Shown here: positions 8,289-28,668 of the stretch, one piece after another | Position numbering within the stretch: the stretch's first letter is position 1 | How the letters are laid out: each line of letters starts with the position of its first letter | Source: a virus | Virus record (IMG/VR): IMGVR_UViG_3300008258_000030 | Span: 1 to 37,023 of that record | DNA: 37,023 bases | Direction: 5' to 3' (one strand) | Notes under the pieces: generated by a model | Seen by the model: only the letters and a program-made list of their open reading frames with translations | Database searches by the model: none | Told to the model about the DNA's origin: nothing | Made by a program: the position numbers and the translations under genes

Positions 8289-9461
8289 ATGAAACTAACT
8301 GAACATTTTTCTTTGGCAGAGATGATTGTTTCTCCTACTGCAAAAAGACTTGGACTCAGCAATACCCCAACTCCAGAACATATCGAGAACATGCGTTACT
8401 GCTGCGAGAAGATTCTCGAACCAGTACGTAATCACTTTGGCAAACCTGTTCAGATCAACTCGTCTTATCGTGCACCGCTGGTGAACAAGGCAGTTGGCGG
8501 ATCGAAGACATCACAACACGTCAACGGCCAAGCAATCGACTTCGAAATTCCTGGTATTGACAACAAAGTAGTTGCTGACTGGATCGGTGACAACCTTGAA
8601 TTCGACCAAGTGATTCTCGAGTTCTACACAAAGGGTGATAAGAATTCTGGTTGGGTTCACGCTTCGATTAAGAAGGGCGGAGGCAATCGTAAGATGCGCA
8701 TGATCGCCACGAAGTCGAAGGCAGGTGGTACAGTGTATACTACTGTTGCTGACTTTGATCCTTCGACGACAAAGGCAGCTGGTGCACCTACTGTCAATCC
8801 ACAGATCACTGACGCTGTAACGCAAGCGAAACCAGTAGCTGCAGGACTTGGTCCATTAGCTGCACTCCAAACCAAATGTGGCATTACTGCCGACGGTAAA
8901 TGGGGACCTGGCACTTATAAGGCAGCCAGAGATTATTTCAAACTGACTAACAACCAAGCTGCGCACTTCTTTGGTCAGTGTGCTCACGAGTCAGGTGGCT
9001 TTAAGGTATTCTCTGAAAACCTGAACTACTCAGATAAGGGACTTAACGGCATCTTCAAGAAGTATTTTCCTACGATCGCTTCGACTGCAGGTTATGCACG
9101 TAAGCCAGAAAAGATCGCTAATAAGGTTTACGCTAATCGGATGGGGAACGGTTCAGAAGCCTCTGGAGATGGTTGGAAGTGGCGTGGTCGAGGCCCGATC
9201 CAACTGACCGGGAAAGACAACTATACAGCTTTTGCCGCTGACGTAAAACGTCCTGACGTCTTGAAGAATCCTGATCTTGTGGTTGGCGAGTTGGCTTTTG
9301 AGTCTGCATTATGGTTCTTCCGTAAGAATGGATTGCTTGCAATTGCAGATAAGGGTGTAACCGATGCTGTGATCACTCAAATCTCGAAGCGAGTGAATGG
9401 CGGTACACACGGTCTTGACGATCGTCTGAAGAAGACGAAGCAGTATGCCAACTGGGGCTAA
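8289..9461 (+). CDS. two-domain endolysin: M15 peptidase + GH19 glycosidase
   Basis: The only plus-strand protein gene; 390 residues, with no signal peptide seen. Residues 1-135 form a peptidase M15A fold with SxHxxGxAxD (S75, H77, D84) and WVHAS (H124), a zinc site that cuts peptidoglycan cross-links. A linker follows, then a short peptidoglycan-binding-like patch (TADGKWGPGTY, about 200-210). Residues about 215-390 form a GH19 lysozyme/chitinase domain with CAHESGGF (catalytic Glu234) and WKWRGRGPIQLTG. The ribosome site is AAAGG. Its 3' end overlaps the convergent oxygenase gene by 4 bp. No clear late promoter is visible in front. Confidence 0.92.
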   Translation: MKLTEHFSLAEMIVSPTAKRLGLSNTPTPEHIENMRYCCEKILEPVRNHFGKPVQINSSYRAPLVNKAVGGSKTSQHVNGQAIDFEIPGIDNKVVADWIGDNLEFDQVILEFYTKGDKNSGWVHASIKKGGGNRKMRMIATKSKAGGTVYTTVADFDPSTTKAAGAPTVNPQITDAVTQAKPVAAGLGPLAALQTKCGITADGKWGPGTYKAARDYFKLTNNQAAHFFGQCAHESGGFKVFSENLNYSDKGLNGIFKKYFPTIASTAGYARKPEKIANKVYANRMGNGSEASGDGWKWRGRGPIQLTGKDNYTAFAADVKRPDVLKNPDLVVGELAFESALWFFRKNGLLAIADKGVTDAVITQISKRVNGGTHGLDDRLKKTKQYANWG

Positions 9462-11710: not shown

Positions 11711-11947
11711 TTAGTTTACCTTTACTTTTACGAGGTTAGCAGGAGCAACGCAGTATAAACCTGCATCGGTATCGACCTTAATCAGACCGCCATCATAGCA
11801 AGCCTTCGTGGTTGCTTCAGCCAGAGCTTTCTCAGCATTTTCGTTTTTGATAGCTGCTGTCAAAATAAGCATCAACAAAACAATTGCAACAGTCATAAAA
11901 CCGGCGAAGCTGAATACGGCTTCAAAAATCTCTTTAACAATTTTCAT
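11711..11947 (-). CDS. single-span membrane protein, 78 aa
   Basis: A helix at about 15-34 (FAGFMTVAIVLLMLILTAAI) followed by a soluble tail with two Cys (CYDGG, LYCVAP) that may face the periplasm. The ribosome site is AAAAGGAATTTGTT. Function unknown; lysis-related or membrane accessory by position only. Confidence 0.6.
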   Translation of the reverse strand: MKIVKEIFEAVFSFAGFMTVAIVLLMLILTAAIKNENAEKALAEATTKACYDGGLIKVDTDAGLYCVAPANLVKVKVN

Positions 11948-11963
11948 AACAAATTCCTTTTAA

Positions 11964-12422
11964 TTAACGATTCATCCACTTTGCATACAGGCCAACTTCA
12001 CGGCCATATGCTTCTATCTCCCAAGGAGCATCGAAGTATGCATCTTCTTTGCTCTTTGGTTTCCAGATTTCACCCATCCACTTGCTGTAGATTTTGAGAC
12101 CGCCACGAGCAGCAACCGCATGACCGGTCTGAAGTTCGTTTTTGGCGTGTTGTTTGACATGGACCATTTCGTGGCCAAGAGTCTTGATCATGGCACCAAT
12201 GTCTTGGCTCTTGAGGCCGATGGTGAACCACCGAGGATTCTTAAAACCATCTTCATCTACGCATTCGCCTTCGACGTCAAGGTTGTTGTAAACTTCGATG
12301 TCGAGGGTGATGTTGCGGGCCATCCGAGGATCCATCAGTTGGTTGGCGAAGAACTCTGCGGCTTCCTTGAGGAGGGCCTTTTCTTTACGCTTGCCAATCA
12401 TACCTGTGATCGTGATGTTCAT
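11964..12422 (-). CDS. SprT-like zinc metalloprotease
   Basis: 152 residues with the HExxH-type motif HEMVHVKQH (H84, E85, H88) and a downstream EIEAYGRE helix that could supply the third ligand. Family members (SprT/Spartan-like) act on proteins, some on DNA-bound proteins. The start MNITITGMIG is chosen because AAGGAC lies 5 nt upstream; an ATG ATG pair 15-18 nt earlier is possible. Driven by the 12450-12478 promoter. Confidence 0.75.
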   Translation of the reverse strand: MNITITGMIGKRKEKALLKEAAEFFANQLMDPRMARNITLDIEVYNNLDVEGECVDEDGFKNPRWFTIGLKSQDIGAMIKTLGHEMVHVKQHAKNELQTGHAVAARGGLKIYSKWMGEIWKPKSKEDAYFDAPWEIEAYGREVGLYAKWMNR

Positions 12423-12449
12423 GTTTTCGTCCTTCATCATTATAGGTCC

Positions 12450-12478
12450 ACCTTACCAAACTTTTGATAAAATGTACA
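12450..12478 (-). promoter_or_regulatory. early-type promoter TGTACA-N17-TAAGGT
   Basis: Minus-strand TGTACA (12473-12478), TAAGGT (12450-12455), 17-nt spacer; followed by TGGACCTATAAT, the same downstream block as in the 22140-22168 promoter. Confidence 0.7.
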
Positions 12479-12487
12479 TGCTAAAAA

Positions 12488-13102
12488 TCAACGTGAACGA
12501 TAATTTGGTCTCGGAAAATCTCTGTCTGCAAGTTCTGGCGTATCAGGATGGACATAGTGAATGAACAGCTGAACCAATGAGTCAATCTCGAGTGGATCTC
12601 GCCAATGCCACTTTCCTCCATACTCATGACCGCCATTAAAGATAATGGCATCTCCTTCATCGAGGTCGATAGGAATGGCATCGCTTTTGTCTTCGTTCTC
12701 ACTGAACCATAAGAACGTATTGCCTTCACCTCGTTTAGACATAGTCAAAGTCATCGAGTATTGACAAGCTTCTCGATCGCGATGGATCTTGAGTTCAGAT
12801 CCGCGATAATATTCTCGTGAATAAGAGTATGATGGCACCATGTCCTCAATACCCCAAATCTTTTCTATGATATGCTTGCAATAGAGAAGAATACTATCAT
12901 CGAAGAAGTTACGATCGACTTCTTCGATATGCCCATCAATATATGGTCCAAATTCTGGCTTTCTCATTCCTTTTGTGTGTGTGATGTCGATAAAAGCCTT
13001 ATACATCTCGATCATATCAGGAGACAAAACTCCTTTGATCTTTACGAATCCATTCTTTTCAAACTCATCTCTGTAAGATGCAAACATACTGTCGTCAATC
13101 AT
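12488..13102 (-). CDS. 2-oxoglutarate/Fe(II) oxygenase
   Basis: 204 residues. The iron motif is HRD (H107, D109), with a distal His in FNGGHEYGGKWH (H159 or H166). The overall shape resembles phytanoyl-CoA dioxygenase-like phage proteins. The substrate is unknown. The ribosome site is GAGGTAAT. It lies 6 nt after the cyclase gene stop, so it may be read through from the curli operon. Confidence 0.8.
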   Translation of the reverse strand: MIDDSMFASYRDEFEKNGFVKIKGVLSPDMIEMYKAFIDITHTKGMRKPEFGPYIDGHIEEVDRNFFDDSILLYCKHIIEKIWGIEDMVPSYSYSREYYRGSELKIHRDREACQYSMTLTMSKRGEGNTFLWFSENEDKSDAIPIDLDEGDAIIFNGGHEYGGKWHWRDPLEIDSLVQLFIHYVHPDTPELADRDFPRPNYRSR

Positions 13103-13108
13103 ATTACC

Positions 13109-15172
13109 TCACTTACTGGTAGCTCTATAAACTCCGTCCCACTTGAGTGGTTCATCAGTCTTCAAATCATATATTCTTTGTTCCATCATAGCATAGTATG
13201 CATTGAGCTCTTCGTTCCAGCATCGCTTGAGATCTTTTATAAGATTCAGAGCTTCATCCCATTTGCCTTGACGATAGAGATCGAGGAACTTCTTATGTAG
13301 TAATTCTCCAGCGCCGTCAGAAACATCGAGAACGGTGTAGATTCTTGCTGGTTCTGTCTTACCTTTGACAGCAATCAGATCGAGTTCGACTATTTGGTAT
13401 ACAGACCCCACCAATTCGGCCGTTTGTGGCCCGACGATGAGTTTAACTCCATAAGGCTTGGTTTGACCTTCCAGACGAGCAGCCAAATTAACGCCGTCGC
13501 CCAGACAAGTATAATCGAAACGCTGATCAGAGCCCATATTACCCACAACCACAGTGGCAGTGTTAATACCAAGACCCATACCGAAAGCTGGAATGCCTTC
13601 TCCTTTAATCTCTTCATTGAAAATCTCCAAATCTTTTAACATTTGAAAGGCAGTTCGAACAGCATCTAATGCATGCTTATTGTTATCGAGCGGAGCATTC
13701 CAGAATGCCATTTGCGCATCACCAATATACTTATCAAGTGTGCCGTTGTTTTCGAGAATCGCCCGTGTCATGACTGTCATGTAACGATTCATAATAGAAG
13801 TCAAGCCTTGGACATCATCTCCGTAGTGTTCAGAGATTGTAGTAAATCCGCGAACGTCTGTAAACATGATCGAAAGATCACGTGATTCTCCGCCAAGCTT
13901 CAAGAGTTCTGGTTGTCTTTGTAGTCTTGCTACCAGATCTGGGCTCAGATATGTGCCGAACTGTTTCTTAATCTGTTGCTTCTGTAAATACTCTGAGATA
14001 AATTTCACTGTATAGATATGAATGTAGATCAGCAGCGCGCCTAATACGTTGAAGCTGATATCCATCATTATACCATAAGTGCCGAATAAGTACACCGGTA
14101 AATACACATAGGCAGCAATCAATGCTGCGATATATACATACGAGAACTTAAATCGAGAGATAACTACCAATGCCAGGAAAAGAAGAAGAAACCCGCCAAG
14201 ATCTACAAGCGGAATCCAATTCGGAATCGACACAGAGTCCCCATTTATCAGAGTCTCAAGAATACTCGCTTGGAGTTGATGGGGATGTTGGGCACCTGAA
14301 GGAGTCGCTACAGGGTTACTTAGCCCAGCTGCAGTCACTCCAACAATCGCGATTTTACCTGCCAGATCGGGCAAAGGACCCGCACCAATTTCGTATGATT
14401 GAAATTGGTAGTTCGGATTGATGAAGGTTCTTCCATACTCGTCTGTTTTAATTGTTTCAAAAGAAGGAATTCGTAATGCTTCAACCCCAGTCTGATTTAT
14501 CTTGGCTTGATACGAAGAGTCTCCTGCAGCTACACGCAGCATCTCTAGAGCAAATGCGGGATAGTATTCGCCTGATGACTCAGATAGAAGAGGAACTCGC
14601 CTTACAACCCCATCAGTCTCGGGTAGGGTTGACGTTATCCCAACACCGGCTGCGGCTTCTTGAAGAACTGAGACATTACTTAGAACGCATGGGTATTGAG
14701 GAAGAAATTCAGTTGCTTCTCCATCGCCGATTACGGCAACGCCTGTCTTCCGAATTGTCGCGCTTGCCCGTGAACAAGAGTCGCTTACCGTCTGGCTAAG
14801 AACGACAGGATATTGCTTTAGCGAATCCGCAAGATCTCGATCAGTCCCCAACCGATCACGCTCAGGGTAAAGTATAGTGCTACCAACAAGAGCAGCCCCT
14901 CGGCCATAGACCTCAGAATGAATGTCAGCGTAGACTTTACGCGGGAACGGATATTGGCCATATTTCTCAATCGCTTTCTCGCCAATATTTATCAAAACGA
15001 TCTGTTCTGACTTCTTTGGTTCAGAAATCATAAGGTAGTCGTAAAACTTGAGGCGAGTGGCTTCGACGAGATATGGATCCGAGATCTTTACTGTCATAAG
15101 AAGAGCGAACGTAAAGATCGCCAGCCATGGGCTCAGAAGAATCGATTTAATTTTTTGTGTAGCTGTACCCAC
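13109..15172 (-). CDS. CHASE2-domain class III adenylate cyclase
   Basis: 687 residues. An N-terminal membrane helix (about 16-30) leads to an extracytoplasmic CHASE2 sensor (about 35-310) and three membrane helices (about 321-390). A class III cyclase domain (about 430-610) follows, then a short C-terminal helix region. Metal Asp439 (FTDVRGFT) and Asp485 (KYIGDAQ) are present. Lys481 and Asp553 (FDYT) match the adenine-specifying pair, and Asn562/Arg566 (GDGVNLAARLE) fit transition-state residues. It should make cAMP in response to a periplasmic signal. Its start overlaps the upstream curlin-like gene by 26 bp, making it the last gene of the curli operon. Confidence 0.9.
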   Translation of the reverse strand: MGTATQKIKSILLSPWLAIFTFALLMTVKISDPYLVEATRLKFYDYLMISEPKKSEQIVLINIGEKAIEKYGQYPFPRKVYADIHSEVYGRGAALVGSTILYPERDRLGTDRDLADSLKQYPVVLSQTVSDSCSRASATIRKTGVAVIGDGEATEFLPQYPCVLSNVSVLQEAAAGVGITSTLPETDGVVRRVPLLSESSGEYYPAFALEMLRVAAGDSSYQAKINQTGVEALRIPSFETIKTDEYGRTFINPNYQFQSYEIGAGPLPDLAGKIAIVGVTAAGLSNPVATPSGAQHPHQLQASILETLINGDSVSIPNWIPLVDLGGFLLLFLALVVISRFKFSYVYIAALIAAYVYLPVYLFGTYGIMMDISFNVLGALLIYIHIYTVKFISEYLQKQQIKKQFGTYLSPDLVARLQRQPELLKLGGESRDLSIMFTDVRGFTTISEHYGDDVQGLTSIMNRYMTVMTRAILENNGTLDKYIGDAQMAFWNAPLDNNKHALDAVRTAFQMLKDLEIFNEEIKGEGIPAFGMGLGINTATVVVGNMGSDQRFDYTCLGDGVNLAARLEGQTKPYGVKLIVGPQTAELVGSVYQIVELDLIAVKGKTEPARIYTVLDVSDGAGELLHKKFLDLYRQGKWDEALNLIKDLKRCWNEELNAYYAMMEQRIYDLKTDEPLKWDGVYRATSK

Positions 15173-16607
15173 TGCAAGGTCCTGTCGCGCATGTTATTGT
15201 CATTGAAGCGGAGTCAGTAGCACTCGCAGCAGTTTGCGATACAGTGACTCCAATTCCTGGATTATTTATTATCAGTTGAAACAGCTTTTGTGAAGCACCA
15301 GATTGAGTGATGGTTGCATTCAATCCGCCATAAGGTGCGCTGATATCTAAGAAGTGATTACCTGTGCCTTGTTGCAAAGTAGTAATTACATTCGAGTTAC
15401 CTAAGATATTGAAGAACGCATACTTTCCACCGGCATCTTTCTGCTGAGCAGTCAGTTGATTTCCCGTTCCATTCATTACCAGCTCTGTATACTTACCATT
15501 ATTTTGTTGTGTAAGAGATACGGTGTTATTATTACCAGTGACAGACACTTCGGCAAGATTGTTTCCGAGAACGGTAGTAGCAGTGCCTTGATTAATAGTA
15601 ATATTGTTGTTGCTACCATTAATTAACATGTCTTGAGAACCGTTAACACCTCTGATGGCATTAAACCTTGAGAACTGTTCGACGTTGACGGTATTATTAT
15701 CGCCGATATTTTGAATGTAAATCGAGTTACTTGTAATAGCATTCGTCTGGCCAAGCTTAATAGTCTGATTAGTCGTAATCGATACAGCAGGATATGCAGG
15801 CGCTGGAGGTGGAGGTGGAGGTGTGGTCGGTGCAGACGATCCTTCGTTTGGAGCTATAGGATTAAACGTGGTTCCATTCAGAGTTGTTGTTCCTTGCAAC
15901 TGGTCGATGAACAAGATAGGAGAAAGAGCTGTGTCACCAAGATTGAATGACGAGAAGCCGAGCGTATAGTTGCCATCAGTCGGTACAGTAAACACGGCGA
16001 GTTGCCAACCAGTGGCACCATAAGATCCTACTGAATAGTTACCAGTTCCTTGATTGGTAAATCCGAGCAGAGCATAATTCTGTGTCTGACCGTTTAAAGT
16101 TGGAATTCCTGGTCCATTCGTCAACGTAATCATCGAGCCGTCGTTGTAAGGAACATAGTCGGTCGACAGATATTGCCAGCCAAACGTGTATGTAATTCCG
16201 GCTTGTAGGAATACGGTTCTACTCACAGACGAAGCATTCGTAGGATACATTGACCCATTCGAATAGATCGTATTTCGAATGGTTGTAATATCGGTTGAGC
16301 TTAGACCAAGCGTAGTCATGGCTGTATTGAATTGAGGAGAACTTCCTCCTGCTTGGACCGATATCATATAAGAACCATAAGGTGTAATTGTCCAGCACTT
16401 ACCTCCACCTGGGCAATAGTTTTGCATGCCAGTTGTCACTTGAACTCCCTGACCAGAATCTGACCAACTCGTTCGAAGTGTGGTGGATCCGTTAGAAACT
16501 GTCCAACCTGCATAAGTTCCATCTTCGAAACCATAGTTCGAAGGCGTCTGCGCATTTAACTGTACGCTAAACGTTAACAGTAGTAGTGTTAAGATCCATC
16601 TGATCAT
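15147..16607 (-). CDS. secreted curlin-repeat protein with extra N-terminal beta domain
   Basis: 486 residues with a clear signal peptide (about 1-19, ending LNAQ). Residues about 20-255 form a beta-rich, Gly/Thr/Ser-rich module (NYGFEDGTYAGWT opening) resembling carbohydrate-binding or adhesin sandwiches; no exact family is claimed. A proline linker (PPPPPP, near 270) follows, then several imperfect curlin-type units with Gln/Asn spacing (NNTVNVEQ, NNITINQG, NNTVSLTQQ, NATITQSG). It is probably exported through CsgG and displayed or assembled outside. It overlaps FecR and cyclase genes at either end. Confidence 0.75.
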   Translation of the reverse strand: MIRWILTLLLLTFSVQLNAQTPSNYGFEDGTYAGWTVSNGSTTLRTSWSDSGQGVQVTTGMQNYCPGGGKCWTITPYGSYMISVQAGGSSPQFNTAMTTLGLSSTDITTIRNTIYSNGSMYPTNASSVSRTVFLQAGITYTFGWQYLSTDYVPYNDGSMITLTNGPGIPTLNGQTQNYALLGFTNQGTGNYSVGSYGATGWQLAVFTVPTDGNYTLGFSSFNLGDTALSPILFIDQLQGTTTLNGTTFNPIAPNEGSSAPTTPPPPPPAPAYPAVSITTNQTIKLGQTNAITSNSIYIQNIGDNNTVNVEQFSRFNAIRGVNGSQDMLINGSNNNITINQGTATTVLGNNLAEVSVTGNNNTVSLTQQNNGKYTELVMNGTGNQLTAQQKDAGGKYAFFNILGNSNVITTLQQGTGNHFLDISAPYGGLNATITQSGASQKLFQLIINNPGIGVTVSQTAASATDSASMTITCATGPCSGYSYTKN

Positions 16608-17740
16608 CTTGCACCTGACTCTTGTATTACGGTGATATTTCCTTGTGGTCTACCTGTACCTGTCGTAGTCCATTTATCATCCATAAAATTGTAGGCGTCG
16701 ACGATTCCATTCTGTACAGAAACGAGTTGAATTTCTGTGTCTTTTGGTAACCATACGATCACAGATTGATTCTTATCCTCTGAGATTCTCGAGTATACCC
16801 ATCCGACTTGCAGTTGTTTCTTGAAAGTAGGAGATACGTTTGTGTAGATAGTTTCTGTCGGTCTTGCACCAGAATTATACTCTGCATAGATATTTTGAAG
16901 TTCATCTTGAGTAGGCAAACGAAGAGTAGCAACTGCGACTTCTTCTACGCCGTCTCCACCGGTATTTGGATCTTGGTTGTCATCAGATGCGGCTTTTGCA
17001 GGATTGACAAATTTCTTGAGTGATTCGCGAGCAGCGTTGATGAGTGATTGTCCATCGTCTGTTTCGAGAGGAGAGATCTGAATATTGTTGTCCATACCCT
17101 TCATTGCAGGGTTAATTACGACCGGAGGAGCAGGAGGAGCGTAAGAATTCTCGACCATCGTTGCTTGGAATGGCTGAGTCAGAGTCACGATACCTGCAGC
17201 AGTGATAACATCGATAGCTCCAGACGGGCATTCGAAGTTGATCTTTGTAATATCTTTATCGTTATAACATTCTGGAACGAGGACAACAGTCGATCTGCCG
17301 GCCTCATCGACTGACATGACAAAGTCTGTGCCTCTTACGGCAATCGTTGCGGTGGGTGTCCGTATACCAACACCGCGAGCGTTGCCATGAGCAATGCCAC
17401 CAGAAGTATATCTCGCAGTTCCCAAAGCCAGCTTAAGACCAAGCTTGCCTTTGCTCTTATTGTTTCCATCATAGACGAAATCATCGATGACTAACCTTGA
17501 ATTTTGTGTGATGTTAACTGTGGTGGCATCGACGAATCGAATCTTAAATCTACCCTGAGAATTGGTAGAGACGGTATCGTTCTTTTCGATACTCGAGCCT
17601 TTAGCAGCAGGTGCGACCTTTGCACCACGCTTCACGGAACCTCCGCCCTGAAACTCTGATATCGATCCCACGCCTGCAAAGGCGGGAACCGATATCAGAA
17701 GTAAGAGATTAATGGCCAGTCTTGATATTAAACGTACCAT
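16604..17740 (-). CDS. FecR-domain periplasmic protein
   Basis: 378 residues. A signal peptide (ends about VPAFA) is followed by a FecR domain (about 25-200) with the characteristic RTPTATIAVRGTDFVMSV stretch. Residues 250-378 hold an acidic linker and a beta-rich tail. FecR domains sense or relay periplasmic signals, and FecR/CHASE2-cyclase pairs occur in bacteria (from memory). Here it is encoded between two curlin-like genes and upstream of the cyclase, suggesting a partner role. The start overlaps the previous gene by 32 bp. Confidence 0.85.
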   Translation of the reverse strand: MVRLISRLAINLLLLISVPAFAGVGSISEFQGGGSVKRGAKVAPAAKGSSIEKNDTVSTNSQGRFKIRFVDATTVNITQNSRLVIDDFVYDGNNKSKGKLGLKLALGTARYTSGGIAHGNARGVGIRTPTATIAVRGTDFVMSVDEAGRSTVVLVPECYNDKDITKINFECPSGAIDVITAAGIVTLTQPFQATMVENSYAPPAPPVVINPAMKGMDNNIQISPLETDDGQSLINAARESLKKFVNPAKAASDDNQDPNTGGDGVEEVAVATLRLPTQDELQNIYAEYNSGARPTETIYTNVSPTFKKQLQVGWVYSRISEDKNQSVIVWLPKDTEIQLVSVQNGIVDAYNFMDDKWTTTGTGRPQGNITVIQESGAR

Positions 17741-18482
17741 TTGAACCCGTCGACTTAAGATTGATTACGGTTTCCGAAGCTCCGTATTGCTGGGTTGTAA
17801 TGGTGTTCAGTGTACCTGTAAGATTCACATAGAGCGAATGTCCAAATGTTCCGCCGAGACCTGTTTGTGTCACGTCGAAGTCATTGTAGTCACCTGTGAC
17901 AAGAACAGTCTGCGTAGCATTTGGTGACAGCGCGTCGATATTGAACGTGTTGTTATCACCAGTGATATCCATCGAGTTACGGATATTTGCACCCGAACCA
18001 TGGAACACAAGAGAGTTTGAATCGCCAGTAAAGCGAGCGTTCATATCGAACTGATTACAGATCGCGTCAGATACTAAAGTACCGCAACGAATGTCTGCAG
18101 TATTTAGGTCGCCGATTTGGCGTATTGTAGCTGTGGCAACTCCTGTGCCTCCAGTTGCGGATACGATTCCCATGTAGAGTTGGTTTCCGTTACCTGTTTG
18201 TACAGCGATGACACTTTGATTATCGCCGCGTAGGTAGATAGGATCACCAGAATCGCCAATAATGTTGGCAGTGCCTGTCTGAACAATGTTAACATCAACG
18301 TTTCCGCCTTCTTGATCAATATACACCTTGTTGGTGGTTGCAACTGCGGCTGCAGTCACTTCATTCGGAGAGGTAGTTACGATTGTTGGTGGTGTTGGGG
18401 CTGTTGGTAGCACTGTTTGTGCAACCGCAGATGTTCCATAAAGAAGAGCAGCGCCAACGAATAAAGCTTTACTTAACTTCAT
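17709..18482 (-). CDS. curlin-repeat protein (CsgA/CsgB-like)
   Basis: 257 residues. A signal peptide ends about AVAQ. The body has repeated strand-turn units with the curlin spacing of I/V-x-Q-x-G-x-x-N, such as NIVQTGTANII, IAVQTGNGNQL, TIRQIGDLNTA, VTQTG and ITTQQYG. Curlins nucleate or form amyloid fibres. It starts MKLSKALFVGA with ribosome site AAAAGGAAACAACAA and overlaps the end of csgG by 14 bp. It is less regular than E. coli CsgA, so fibre formation is inference. Confidence 0.78.
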   Translation of the reverse strand: MKLSKALFVGAALLYGTSAVAQTVLPTAPTPPTIVTTSPNEVTAAAVATTNKVYIDQEGGNVDVNIVQTGTANIIGDSGDPIYLRGDNQSVIAVQTGNGNQLYMGIVSATGGTGVATATIRQIGDLNTADIRCGTLVSDAICNQFDMNARFTGDSNSLVFHGSGANIRNSMDITGDNNTFNIDALSPNATQTVLVTGDYNDFDVTQTGLGGTFGHSLYVNLTGTLNTITTQQYGASETVINLKSTGSNGTFNIKTGH

Positions 18483-19293
18483 TTGTTGTTTCCTTTTGCT
18501 TAAATCTCCATAGACCTTTACGTTCACCATCCTTGATCAATTCCACAACGGCCGTTTCTATGGCTGAACGGATCGCATAACTACCAGCTTCATTCGATGT
18601 TTGTTGTCCATCAAATTCAAAAGCTTTTGTTGCCATGTCAAAGAATTTAAATGCTGTCACTCCCTCGGATGTAGAGAGCAGATTCTTCTCAACAGTGACA
18701 GAGGTGAGGACTTCACCTGTCTGTACTGAGACGAGTCGCATACTAATAGTAACTTGATCTTCTGCGTACTGCTGATAAGGACCAATTCCAAGGAATCGTG
18801 CACCGTTACCACCAGTCTTGGTATTTGAACTATAGTCAATAATACCGCCTTCAAGAATGATACCTGCAACCATGAGAGGAGGAAGCGGTTCTGCACCTTC
18901 TCCGAGTTGCTGTTCTCTCATCTGTCTGACAAGCTGACGTTCTTTAATAAGAGAATCGATACCTACGCGTTCGACTGGACGAAACCACTTGCCATCGCCA
19001 GTATCTGCCAATGTTTTGATAACATAAGCATCGGCGCCTTGAGTTACCGCCGTCGAGAAGCTGGCTTGAGTAGCAGAAGGTTTACGTTGTCCTGTTCTAT
19101 CAGTGAACGAGTAGATAGCGATAGGAATCACTTGTCCATCGAGCTCTGGTAGATTTTTAAACAACTTAGGATTTGCAAATCTTTCTACCTCAGCATCTTC
19201 TCGTAGAAGATATGACTGATTCAGATGAGGATGCATTCCGCCTATGCAACCAGATGTTGCAAGAAGTATTGGAAGCAAGAGTAGTTTTTTCAT
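18469..19293 (-). CDS. csgG: CsgG curli secretion channel lipoprotein
   Basis: 274 residues, near the 277 of E. coli CsgG. The lipoprotein signal ends at Cys16 (LATSGC). Strong colinear matches include IYSFTDRTGQRKPSATQASFSTAV (shortened here), WFRPVERVGIDSLIKERQ, NTKTGGNGARFLGIG and AIETAVVELIKDG. CsgG forms a nonameric outer-membrane pore that exports curlins. It is flanked by csgF upstream and a curlin gene downstream, as in bacterial curli systems. CsgE is not seen in the window. Confidence 0.95.
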   Translation of the reverse strand: MKKLLLLPILLATSGCIGGMHPHLNQSYLLREDAEVERFANPKLFKNLPELDGQVIPIAIYSFTDRTGQRKPSATQASFSTAVTQGADAYVIKTLADTGDGKWFRPVERVGIDSLIKERQLVRQMREQQLGEGAEPLPPLMVAGIILEGGIIDYSSNTKTGGNGARFLGIGPYQQYAEDQVTISMRLVSVQTGEVLTSVTVEKNLLSTSEGVTAFKFFDMATKAFEFDGQQTSNEAGSYAIRSAIETAVVELIKDGERKGLWRFKQKETTNEVK

Positions 19294-19302
19294 GGCTTTT
19301 CC

Positions 19303-19749
19303 TTAGAACCCAAAGGTTGCGATAGGAACAGTCACGACTGTCGTATTACCAGCTTTGTCGACAACCGTCAACGTCACTGATGTACCAGTTTTTACATAGC
19401 TAATCGTATTACCATCGAGGGTGAATATGCCCTGTTGAGCAGAACCTTCAGCAAAAAGATTGTTTGAAAGCTGCGTCGCCAGCTGAGCATATACCTGAGA
19501 TGTAAACAGTGCCATAAACTTGGCAAGCGGAGTGTTAGCTGCTTCGGATCTCGCAAGAGCTAGCTTTGCGGCTTCGGCATCTTTGATTGCTTGCTCACGA
19601 GAACGCTCTTGCGCATCGATTGCTTGCACATGTTGTGACCATCCATATCCATTGAAGGAAGGACTTTTAAACTGTTGTACAATCGGATCAGCTTTTGCCG
19701 GCGCGCTGAAGCATATCAATAACGTCAATATTGCTAGTTTCTTCGACAC
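19303..19749 (-). CDS. csgF: CsgF curli assembly factor
   Basis: 148 residues with a GTG start (19747-19749) supported by AAGGAAG upstream and a signal peptide beginning right there (ends about PAKA). A longer TTG-started frame reaches 19815 but is lysine-rich and lacks a site. The mature N-terminus QFKSPSFNGYG matches the CsgF F-x-N-P-x-F-G-G motif that inserts in the CsgG pore. The C-terminal TISYVKTGTSVTLTVVDKAG strands also fit. An inserted Ala-rich helix lies in the middle. CsgF anchors the nucleator to CsgG at the cell surface. Confidence 0.88.
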   Translation of the reverse strand: MSKKLAILTLLICFSAPAKADPIVQQFKSPSFNGYGWSQHVQAIDAQERSREQAIKDAEAAKLALARSEAANTPLAKFMALFTSQVYAQLATQLSNNLFAEGSAQQGIFTLDGNTISYVKTGTSVTLTVVDKAGNTTVVTVPIATFGF

Positions 19750-19811
19750 TTTCTTCTTCCTTTTTCTTTTCAGAAGAAAGACTAAACTCAAGCGAGAAGA
19801 TCTTAATGATT

Positions 19812-20075
19812 TCAATCTTTAGATTTATATTCATCGTGATCTTCCTTTATCTGCAATACTACACTCACCTTCTGTTGTAACCGAATCATATCATTATCAA
19901 GCATGCGAACACGATCAATGAGAGCAATCAAAATAGCGTTTGTCTCACCAATCAATGGCATTAATTTATCTGTAACGAACTTGTAGATAAACCATACAAA
20001 ATATCCCATACCCACCGAGGAGACAATAGGAAAACCATATTGTTTTACAAGTTCAGCAACCGTATTTAAATCCAT
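19812..20075 (-). CDS. holin-like membrane protein, 87 aa (second copy)
   Basis: One membrane helix (about 15-33, FPIVSSVGMGYFVWFIYKFV) and a helical tail (IDRVRMLDNDMIRLQQKV), with a charged end. Layout resembles BhlA/UviB-type phage proteins and closely mirrors the gene upstream, so the two look like paralogues. The start directly abuts the previous stop. Holin function is inference. Confidence 0.55.
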   Translation of the reverse strand: MDLNTVAELVKQYGFPIVSSVGMGYFVWFIYKFVTDKLMPLIGETNAILIALIDRVRMLDNDMIRLQQKVSVVLQIKEDHDEYKSKD

Positions 20076-20362
20076 TAATCTTTTCTCGCATCGTTCTTCC
20101 CGTCGGCTCGAGCGATACGATCCAGATCCGGTTTCAGTCCTAGTGCCGAACTTACAACCGCATCCATTCGGATAATGTCATGGTTCATCGTTCGAACTCG
20201 ATTGTCGAGTCCCATGATAATACCTTGCATACCCTTAATGGCTTTCACAACACTTTCTAAAATATAATTAATGACGAAGTAAACAAAAACCCCAGCAATC
20301 AGCGCAGCTGCGATAGGGAATCCGACATCAGCAATCAATTTAAAAATAGCGTCGTAGTTCAT
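20075..20362 (-). CDS. holin-like membrane protein, 95 aa (first copy)
   Basis: Start MNYDAIFKLIADVGFPIAA; longer in-frame starts lie inside the previous gene. A membrane helix (about 13-35) is followed by a helical tail with NRVRTMNHDIIRMDAVV, parallel to the next gene. A TATAAATA box lies 5 nt before its ATG, so the mRNA may be leaderless. It opens the curli operon. Holin function is inference. Confidence 0.55.
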   Translation of the reverse strand: MNYDAIFKLIADVGFPIAAALIAGVFVYFVINYILESVVKAIKGMQGIIMGLDNRVRTMNHDIIRMDAVVSSALGLKPDLDRIARADGKNDARKD

Positions 20363-20367
20363 ACAAC

Positions 20368-20375
20368 TATTTATA
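20368..20375 (-). promoter_or_regulatory. late promoter TATAAATA of the curli operon
   Basis: An exact late box on the minus strand, right after the radical SAM stop and 5 nt before the first holin-like ATG. T4 late starts lie a few nt downstream of the box, so the start would fall on or beside the ATG. Confidence 0.65.
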
Positions 20376-21389
20376 CTACTTCGTAACTGAGGCGCTACAC
20401 TTCGTACAAATGTTATTATATGCTCTGTCGATGGTCTCGACGTGCTTATCACTCAACCACATCTCGGAGAGTTCTTGTTCAAGAACATTACCAAAAATAT
20501 AGTCGAAGTTATAGTCATTGCAACAGAGAATGGCATCTCCACTCGAGTTGATACTCAGCCACTCATAGTTGCGATCACCCCAGTTTTGACAACCTACGAC
20601 AGTACGATTCTTCATACGATCTTTCATGTAGTCTTCTTCAGTAATATACTGAGCGATAAGACCGGTACGATCAATCAGATCAGACTTTTCTATATCAAAC
20701 TTAGGGAACAGTTTCGTGGCAATATCTACTTGCCTCTGATGCTCTCCAGTCTGTAAGTCGAGATCGATGCCAAGCTCTTCAAACTTCGGGCCTTTCTTCA
20801 AAGATCCTGTCTTAAATGAGAGTTCGTTGACACCGTTGACGATAAGCTTCACTCTTCCTGCAAGTTTGCGAGTTACGGCATGATTATGCAGGTTTTCAAG
20901 ATTCTCCATCATATCATCGAATCGCTTGGCAGGAAATCCTGATCTCTTCGACCAGACTTCTGCATTTTCATATGCAGGAATGTTCAGTGCGATTTCTTGA
21001 ATGACAGAAGGAGTATACTTGTTGATGATATCGAGTTTATCAGGAGTCAGATTGACACCGTTGCTCAGAATGAAAGTCTTCAGACCATAGTGCTTTGCCA
21101 GTTCGAGTAGCTTCTCGAAGTCTTTGTACAGCAGCACTTCACTGTAGTGTGTGGTCAGAAAGAGATCAAAATCTGGACTGACGACTCCGTTTGGTGTCTC
21201 TCGTTCGACAATAAGTTTTCGAAAGATCTTCTCGACGTCCTCAATCGGCATCTGCTTCATACCAGATTCTGGTTGAGGAATGTACCTGACAGGACAATAC
21301 CAGCACTTGGCATTACAGAACCCAAAAAGGTCGATAGCCAAGCGCTGGATTTGATATGCTTTTAACCTAGAACGAATAAATGTCGACAA
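20376..21389 (-). CDS. radical SAM/SPASM protein
   Basis: 337 residues. The radical SAM cluster motif is CNAKCWYC (C25, C29, C32) for a 4Fe-4S/AdoMet reaction. The C-terminal region has a SPASM-like Cys set (VGCQNWG, AILCCNDYNFD, NICTKC). SPASM enzymes often modify peptides or proteins. The start is TTG (21387-21389) with GAGGTG upstream; no ATG is available. It lies immediately before the curli operon, so the substrate could be one of its products, but that is inference. Confidence 0.88.
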   Translation of the reverse strand: MSTFIRSRLKAYQIQRLAIDLFGFCNAKCWYCPVRYIPQPESGMKQMPIEDVEKIFRKLIVERETPNGVVSPDFDLFLTTHYSEVLLYKDFEKLLELAKHYGLKTFILSNGVNLTPDKLDIINKYTPSVIQEIALNIPAYENAEVWSKRSGFPAKRFDDMMENLENLHNHAVTRKLAGRVKLIVNGVNELSFKTGSLKKGPKFEELGIDLDLQTGEHQRQVDIATKLFPKFDIEKSDLIDRTGLIAQYITEEDYMKDRMKNRTVVGCQNWGDRNYEWLSINSSGDAILCCNDYNFDYIFGNVLEQELSEMWLSDKHVETIDRAYNNICTKCSASVTK

Positions 21390-23589: not shown

Positions 23590-23860
23590 TGAATAAAGGC
23601 GAAGTGGGAGGATTCAGTTGTACCTCCAAGGCCCAGTCAATTACTATCTGTAATCTCAGCCTACGACTCGTTTGCCGGTTGAGCGGGAGACCAATCCCCG
23701 AGTCTACTTTATCCCCACTGACAAGGGGATTATTCAGTCACACTTCTTACCAGGTCCGTCGACCCAGATATCTATTTGCTCTGTGGGATCCGCCCCCACG
23801 TACCAGCCCTCAATGGCCGGATCTTAGTCTAATTGCACGGACTACCGTGTCCCAGATCAA
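23590..23860 (-). ncRNA. candidate structured RNA between barrel gene and peroxiredoxin unit
   Basis: A 297-nt gap (23578-23874) without a credible gene on the minus strand, but dense in hairpins. These include CACGG-ACTA-CCGTG (23836-23849), GATCCG/CGGATC (23787-23823), GGTC-CGTC-GACC, ATCCCC/GGGGAT (23711-23730), ATTAC-TATCT-GTAAT (23640-23654) and GGAGG/CCTCC (23607-23627). GGGGATT at 23725-23731 can also pair with AATCCCC at 23693-23699, giving two mutually exclusive folds. No known RNA family recognised. Confidence 0.55.
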
Positions 23861-24604: not shown

Positions 24605-24612
24605 TATTTATA
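24605..24612 (-). promoter_or_regulatory. late promoter TATAAATA before tRNA-Asn
   Basis: Exact late box on the minus strand, 10 nt before tRNA-Asn, overlapping the end of the 83-aa gene. Likely drives tRNA-Asn, the 24406-24518 RNA and the barrel gene. Confidence 0.65.
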
Positions 24613-28660: not shown

Positions 28661-28668
28661 TATTTATA
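28661..28668 (-). promoter_or_regulatory. late promoter TATAAATA of the main tRNA block
   Basis: Exact late box on the minus strand, 10 nt before tRNA-Asp and just after the TGTACA promoter. Confidence 0.65.

Follow-up and report, generated by a model that had tools for sequence, protein, structure and literature searches.

Curli (type VIII secretion) genes have been described in phages more than once. The pore genes for CsgF and CsgG were reported in pelagimyophages (PMC7029224) and in Melnitz, a phage of OM43 (PMC9004378), and curli genes were reported in a T4-like virus whose host is predicted to belong to the Bacteroidetes (PMC7198788) and in temperate viruses from sediment (PMC9636769). 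The fullest description, from 2022, is of an eight-gene set in SAR11 podo- and myophages, made up of one or two kinases, CsgF, CsgG, a curlin, FecR, a second curlin and a cyclase (PMC9599517). Here we analyze a virus sequence of 37,023 bases, IMG/VR record IMGVR_UViG_3300008258_000030, which at its full length is called the window below and whose minus strand carries a curli module. An initial annotation had taken the combination of curli and signaling genes to be unusual; that view has to be given up, since the set is published for SAR11 phages (PMC9599517) and the records of HTVC008M (NC_020484) and Melnitz (MZ577097) hold these eight genes in identical order, with CsgE likewise not found. 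By sequence, the window phage is a divergent representative of this published set. Its CsgG is 42 to 49% identical to those of HTVC008M and Melnitz, depending on the stretch aligned, and its cyclase is 40 to 41% identical; its GC content is about 44%, compared with 31 to 34% among the rows consulted of the pelagimyophage table in PMC7029224; it has 24 tRNA genes; and its second curlin begins with a domain resembling a carbohydrate-binding module (CBM) where that of HTVC008M has a PA14 domain. We consider it fairly probable, from sequence comparison, that late in infection the module displays adhesin-bearing fibers of the curli type that would hold the infected cell, or its remains and progeny, near fresh hosts or particles.

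The eight genes are all on the minus strand and overlap or nearly overlap. In reading order, the features are as follows.

20368..20375, minus strand: T4-type late promoter box TATAAATA, 5 nucleotides ahead of the first start codon.
20075..20362, minus strand: small membrane protein 1 ("hol1"), 95 amino acids, one hydrophobic stretch, conserved C-terminal motif LDNRV.TMNHD (alignment of 58).
19812..20075, minus strand: small membrane protein 2 ("hol2"), 87 amino acids, paralogue of protein 1, motif LIDRIRMLDNDLIRL (alignment of 65).
19303..19749, minus strand: CsgF, 148 amino acids, signal peptide by eye (Pfam CsgF, E = 3.1e-17, profile positions 5 to 132 of 132; start region).
18469..19293, minus strand: CsgG, outer-membrane curli pore, lipobox LLATSGC by eye (Pfam, 2.8e-52; solved Escherichia coli CsgG in the PDB, 2.4e-45 over residues 2 to 268).
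17709..18482, minus strand: curlin 1, with a putative start at residue 17 of the listed open reading frame, ahead of the signal peptide (Pfam curlin repeat, 5.8e-06, above the cutoff; repeat cores).
16604..17740, minus strand: periplasmic FecR-domain protein, signal peptide by eye (Pfam FecR, 1.4e-12).
15147..16607, minus strand: curlin 2, N-terminal CBM-like domain and C-terminal curlin repeats (repeat counts, models, fold matches).
15822..16550, minus strand: N-terminal beta-sandwich of curlin 2, residues 20 to 262, CBM-like (model; Foldseek match to CBM61; porphyran-binding CBM).
13109..15172, minus strand: CHASE2 adenylyl cyclase, 687 amino acids, with D439, K481, D485, T555, N562 and R566 (Pfam CHASE2, 2e-34, and cyclase, 3.6e-16; 135 aligned rows).

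Relatives place the start of small membrane protein 1 at 20362 rather than at 20452. CsgF most likely starts at the GTG at 19749, behind the Shine-Dalgarno-like AGGAAGAAGAAA, with the longer TTG frame, which reaches 19815, as the less likely choice. The median ratio of nonsynonymous to synonymous substitution rates (dN/dS) of the eight genes was 0.018 to 0.159, with dS partly saturated and usable pairs numbering one for small gene 1 and seven for FecR, and it suggests that all eight are under purifying selection.

Profile searches gave Pfam matches for CsgG, CsgF, curlin, FecR, CHASE2 and the cyclase. The initial annotation had CsgG and CsgF both matching their E. coli counterparts over the full length, which is borne out for CsgG; CsgF was recognized by its Pfam profile, and a one-sequence PDB search returned no CsgF at an E value of up to 1. 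Curlin 1 contains 9 repeat cores where 1.3 were expected, a number reached in none of 2,000 shuffles, and the FecR protein, counted as a control, showed no excess. The identification of two curlin-repeat proteins therefore stands, the first by its Pfam match and the second by its relatives, its excess of G..N repeats and its solenoid model, which are described below. In the Melnitz record, two genes bear the annotation curlin repeat protein, and the profile also recovered both. CsgG and FecR are both present in 67 of 72 more distant loci, and in every one of these 67 a curlin match lies between them.

The single exact late box ahead of all eight genes had been pointed out from the start, and it is present as described. 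The window contains six exact copies of TATAAATA, every one on the minus strand, against 1.22 expected. Where membrane gene 1 shares the strand of CsgF, 57 of 97 distinct sequences have the box upstream of it; shuffles gave an expectation of 1.55, and 11 copies were antisense. Where the pair of membrane genes faces the cyclase, the box is ahead of membrane gene 1 in 6 of 40 cases (4 antisense) and ahead of CsgF in 4 of 16. Over all arrangements, 29 of 73 boxes end exactly 5 nucleotides ahead of the start codon; with the geometry of a T4 late promoter, such a box would give a nearly leaderless message. CsgG, CsgF and the curlins behind a late-type promoter agree with an outer-membrane channel made late, as the initial annotation had it, and most likely used for fibers, one of several uses that it listed. 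For its further suggestion, that the channel helps to breach the outer membrane, we obtained no positive evidence. Two other late boxes on the minus strand (24605-24612 and 28661-28668) stand directly upstream of tRNA-Asn and tRNA-Asp, so that the tRNA clusters may also be transcribed late.

The second curlin is the candidate adhesin. Several of its relatives pass the Pfam curlin-repeat cutoff and others do not. In the window protein, the C-terminal part holds 8 G..N repeats against 3.2 expected (P = 0.0065), two stricter repeat patterns were not significant there (P = 0.09 and 0.24), and the model has a beta-solenoid C terminus. A Foldseek comparison with viral models matched the full model to "Curlin associated" proteins from uncultured phages, with 41% identity for the best of them. 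Since the full-length model was weak (predicted local distance difference test [pLDDT], 68.8) and the PDB matches of its N-terminal part were middling (Z 7 to 8), the N-terminal domain was folded alone, giving a pLDDT of 85.2 and a predicted template modeling score of 0.87. Its best solved matches were carbohydrate-binding modules: CBM61 (Foldseek E = 2.9e-05), a porphyran-binding CBM (Z 9.9, root mean square deviation 2.9, 122 aligned residues) and CBM16 (Z 8.9).

This N-terminal domain differs between phages. The window type had no Pfam match, and an N-terminal Pfam domain was absent in 6 of 10 relatives of one scanned set and 1 of 10 of another. The N terminus is PA14, above the Pfam cutoff, in HTVC008M (2.7e-06) and in IMG/VR loci L187 (1.7e-10), L184 (8.3e-15), L212, L185, L223 and L122 (8.3e-09 to 6.5e-14 for the last four); in three of these seven a weaker match to GLEYA, a yeast flocculin domain, stands beside PA14. 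It is F5/8-C in L154 (5.8e-09), L131 (5e-11), L136 and L240, and in L133 a window-type curlin 2 has an extra discoidin-like stretch inserted, as read by eye. The genes between FecR and the cyclase in 164 loci were window type in 39, PA14 type in 21, F5/8-C type in 13 and other in 60, and were absent in 31; these labels come from home-made PA14 and F5/8-C profiles, looser than those of Pfam, so that, among the labeled loci that were scanned, L156, L161 and L169 have no PA14 match in the Pfam scan and L141 falls below the F5/8-C cutoff. The F5/8-C proteins of L150 and L179 have no curlin match and may be separate adhesin genes. On the CsgG tree, the three N-terminal classes need 8 changes over 30 rows, where the least possible is 2. 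With stricter labels, the count is 7 changes over 25 rows, or 5 over 23 without the two separate adhesin-like genes, again with a minimum of 2; this recount leaves out L156, L161, L169 and L141 as well as the unscanned L132 and L134, and moves L248 to the window's class. The tree used was a second one, in which near-copies were removed only within a class, a thinning chosen after the first tree had been seen; the first, thinned tree had 9 rows and 3 changes, too few to judge the domain classes. These counts indicate that the sugar-binding-like domain of curlin 2 has been exchanged several times. A full-text literature search found no paper joining curlin, the PA14 domain and phage. The words PA14 and carbohydrate are absent from the main text of PMC9599517, and PA14 and lectin are absent from the main texts of PMC7029224 and PMC9004378, where "adhesin" occurs in the references only. 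Sugar-binding-like curlin tips are thus not pointed out in the published accounts that we found.

A number of results weigh against adhesin-bearing fibers. CsgE, which the initial annotation had not seen either, was found in none of 20 phage records including the window, many of them possibly fragments, and both bacterial curli genomes run alongside came out positive. The window's curlin 2 itself scores below the Pfam curlin-repeat cutoff (0.01). The fold matches of its N-terminal domain also include a glucosyltransferase (Z 9.9), MAM domains and tailspikes (near 8) and other beta-sandwiches, and a shared fold, here that of a model, shows no function. Of the 31 of 164 loci without a gene between FecR and the cyclase, 2, L248 and L286 on one contig, carry a window-type, adhesin-bearing second curlin beyond the cyclase, and in the other 29 none of the three classes was found in the locus, so that the adhesin-bearing curlin is dispensable. 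In the cyclase, the Thr position is T, D or S in 79, 42 and 14 of 135 rows and the Asn position is N or S in 93 and 42. The exact late box is missing ahead of 40 of the 97 same-strand copies. Finally, neither cytograms nor electron micrographs showed the Melnitz authors any clumping (PMC9004378). Those authors proposed instead that the CsgG-CsgF pore has been co-opted to time lysis, acting like a pinholin or as a gated channel, and that no working fiber is made (PMC9004378); the late box, the two holin-like membrane genes at the operon head, the CsgE result and the lack of clumping would all suit such a pore. We nevertheless judge it improbable. The argument was built on missing curlin genes, yet the Melnitz record has two; a curlin match is constant between CsgG and FecR in the loci holding both; the curlins appear to be under purifying selection; and the pore sits in the outer membrane, with the endolysin gene elsewhere (8289-9461, plus strand), apart from the minus-strand curli module.

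Instead of gathering hosts, the fibers might coat the infected cell and shield it from other phages. Such superinfection exclusion was proposed in PMC9599517 and would use the same genes at the same time. It seems unlikely to us, because late expression would come late for exclusion and because swapped sugar-binding-like domains would suit attachment better than a passive coat.

The two small genes at the head of the operon had been called holin-like. They do encode one-helix membrane proteins, and both match one PHROG family of unknown function, phrog_18771. Their homologues (58 and 65 distinct sequences) mostly share a G-x-P motif, then a single hydrophobic stretch and, at the C terminus, a charged motif. 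The holin reading is unproven: the matches are weak (PHROG holin, E = 0.015 and 0.043; YvrJ, 0.12) and the genes travel with curli genes, not with this window's endolysin. True holins, in a lysis cassette that also ships fibers, would account for those matches, for the size and single hydrophobic stretch and for the G-x-P motif ahead of it. This is doubtful, however, as members of a holin family should also turn up in other phages, and among 50,697 phage records the pair occurs in the same six (two of HTVC008M, four of Melnitz) that hold phage curli genes. The CsgG search of these records gave a seventh match, OR851715.1, a sequence of 1,499 bases named as a Salmonella phage and lacking annotation, which is possibly a bacterial fragment. 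The same linkage was seen in IMG/VR, where 133 of 143 loci newly found through the pair alone have another module gene in reach (CsgF or CsgG in 103, another gene in 30); of the 10 with none, 9 end within about 3.6 kb downstream and the tenth (L295) has the pair at the contig start. The pair either precedes CsgF, sharing its strand, or lies past the cyclase and faces it, so its linkage to the module outlasts rearrangement, and this linkage points to the pair being probably a dedicated part of the curli system. The published account of the pelagiphage system puts one or two histidine kinases at its head (PMC9599517), whereas the window's small genes match no kinase model. We reject the kinase label for what we infer by position to be the same genes, as Pfam kinase models gave no match at E values of up to 5 for six such proteins from three phages, the proteins at issue being 87 to 115 amino acids long. 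A literature search for the pair as holins or transmembrane proteins of pelagiphage curli returned only a review of another secretion system, and its role as a dedicated partner of the module is not pointed out in the published accounts found.

At the other end of the module, the cyclase carries the catalytic residues expected in a functional class III adenylyl cyclase, as judged from its sequence. D439 and D485 are the metal-binding aspartates and K481 and T555 the adenine pair, with N562 and R566 completing the set; both aspartates, the lysine and the arginine are kept in 135 of 135 aligned rows. Of the 17 bacterial genomes from which the nearest curli loci come, 12 hold a related cyclase, and a FecR match lies close to 8 of 24 distinct bacterial cyclase places, some with short flanks. 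Near bacterial CsgG, by comparison, neither FecR nor the cyclase nor the small pair was found at any of 76 loci, searched up to 10 kb on each side (3 loci being shorter than 10 kb in all). As the bacterial FecR-cyclase pairs stand away from curli, the phage module has the look of two units put together, a curli operon and a FecR-CHASE2 cassette. A Burkholderia operon that regulates biofilm likewise has a periplasmic FecR beside a CHASE2 sensor (PMC5192318) and offers, by analogy, a precedent for such a pair in the control of a surface matrix. It differs in that the CHASE2 output is a histidine kinase, the FecR protein carries LysM and no curli genes are described with it. The cyclic-nucleotide-binding domain PF00027 was found in none of the 20 phage records, some possibly fragments, and cyclic AMP (cAMP) would then have to act through the host. 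A Pycsar-type defense was considered and dropped: the only region that PycC models match is the cyclase domain (8.2e-24), and the other seven proteins have no PADLOC match at E values of up to 0.01. The last approximately 100 residues of the cyclase (13109-13447) have stand-alone relatives of 102 to 154 amino acids in seven other phages (L159, L180, L148, L178, L140, L190 and L150), upstream of CsgF or of the membrane pair. In L136, the FecR frame is in four pieces (11720-12880), through an assembly fault or in a decaying gene.

A scan of IMG/VR with the window CsgG gave 36 loci at 82 to 100% identity. Of these, 28 match all eight genes in the window's order, some of them ending within the cyclase gene; in the other 8 the sequence stops before the module is complete. 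Its presence in 36 close relatives excludes host DNA misassembled into a phage, the possibility that the initial annotation had raised against itself. Profile scans confirmed at least 589 relatives of CsgG, at least 579 of small protein 2 and at least 463 of small protein 1, of which the best 80 each were used, including contigs of up to 383 kb among those for CsgG; 6 and 11 loci of the small-protein scans were shared with earlier scans and not recounted, and several loci share contigs, so that the counts are not independent. Bacterial curli operons (Dueholm 2012, PMC3521004) have CsgG, CsgF and curlin-repeat proteins in common with the window, and those of alphaproteobacteria are also without CsgC, CsgD and CsgE in that account. 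In a CsgG tree of 105 rows, 20 bacterial rows fall on one side of a branch (Shimodaira-Hasegawa-like approximate likelihood ratio test, 97) and all phage rows on the other; the bacterial rows are from the best 80 matches to a pattern built from phage CsgG, which may miss other bacterial kin. Four short contigs filed as metagenome-assembled genomes of Flavobacteriaceae, Flavobacteriales, Saprospirales and Synechococcus (L040, L041, L045 and L067) carry the phage module or part of it; given this layout and their place among the phage CsgG rows, they are probably misbinned phage.

The rest of the window has T4-type genes for DNA polymerase, a UvsX-like recombinase, a DnaB-like helicase, clamp and clamp loader, and RNA ligase/tail fiber attachment. 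A megablast search of its first 25,000 bases against the 50,697 phage records matched 65, of which 63 are named as Synechococcus phages and 2 as cyanophages; the 20 matches listed cover 1% of the query, all at the DNA polymerase. Although the polymerase is nearest to those of cyanophages, a cyanophage identity was rejected, the psbA family being found in none of 17 long relatives. When the tRNAs were searched against 100 genomes from a single bacterial order, every genome matched, at 73 to 89% identity among the matches listed, which gave no host signal. A manA RNA (Rfam RF01745, 60.7 bits, above the cutoff) lies at 23597-23766 on the minus strand, between the tRNA region and a peroxiredoxin-like gene. 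Directly upstream of the module, on the minus strand, is a gene for a radical SAM/SPASM protein (20376-21389), matched in 6 of the 36 close relatives.

Taken together, the module looks functional, and the adhesin and membrane-pair findings favor surface fibers over a bare pore. The module would be switched on late from its T4-type promoter, and both curlins would leave through Sec and then the CsgG-CsgF pore to assemble as fibers on the infected cell, where curlin 2 would place an adhesin on the fiber. The periplasmic FecR protein and the inner-membrane CHASE2 protein may sense secretion or the state of the envelope or fiber and raise cAMP, to be read by a host receptor. The membrane pair would be an inner-membrane partner of the same system, possibly replacing the absent gate CsgE, and the finished fiber would most likely keep the infected cell, or what remains of it and its progeny, close to fresh hosts or particles. 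A more specific version is possible, and we put it forward only tentatively: a phage-only inner-membrane pair and CsgG-CsgF might export amyloid fibers with exchangeable sugar-binding domains, FecR-CHASE2 might report export as cAMP, and the dying cell might trap the next host, its adhesin being swapped as tail-fiber tips are.

Curli genes in phages, reported in 2020, are still without an agreed function, and one later paper argued that the fiber genes were missing. Exchangeable sugar-binding-like domains on curlin 2 would give the fiber a direct reason, adhesion. The membrane pair, so far labeled histidine kinase or hypothetical, becomes a marker of the system, and the module has a much wider range than the SAR11 and OM43 phages published so far, occurring on contigs of 200 to 383 kb as well.

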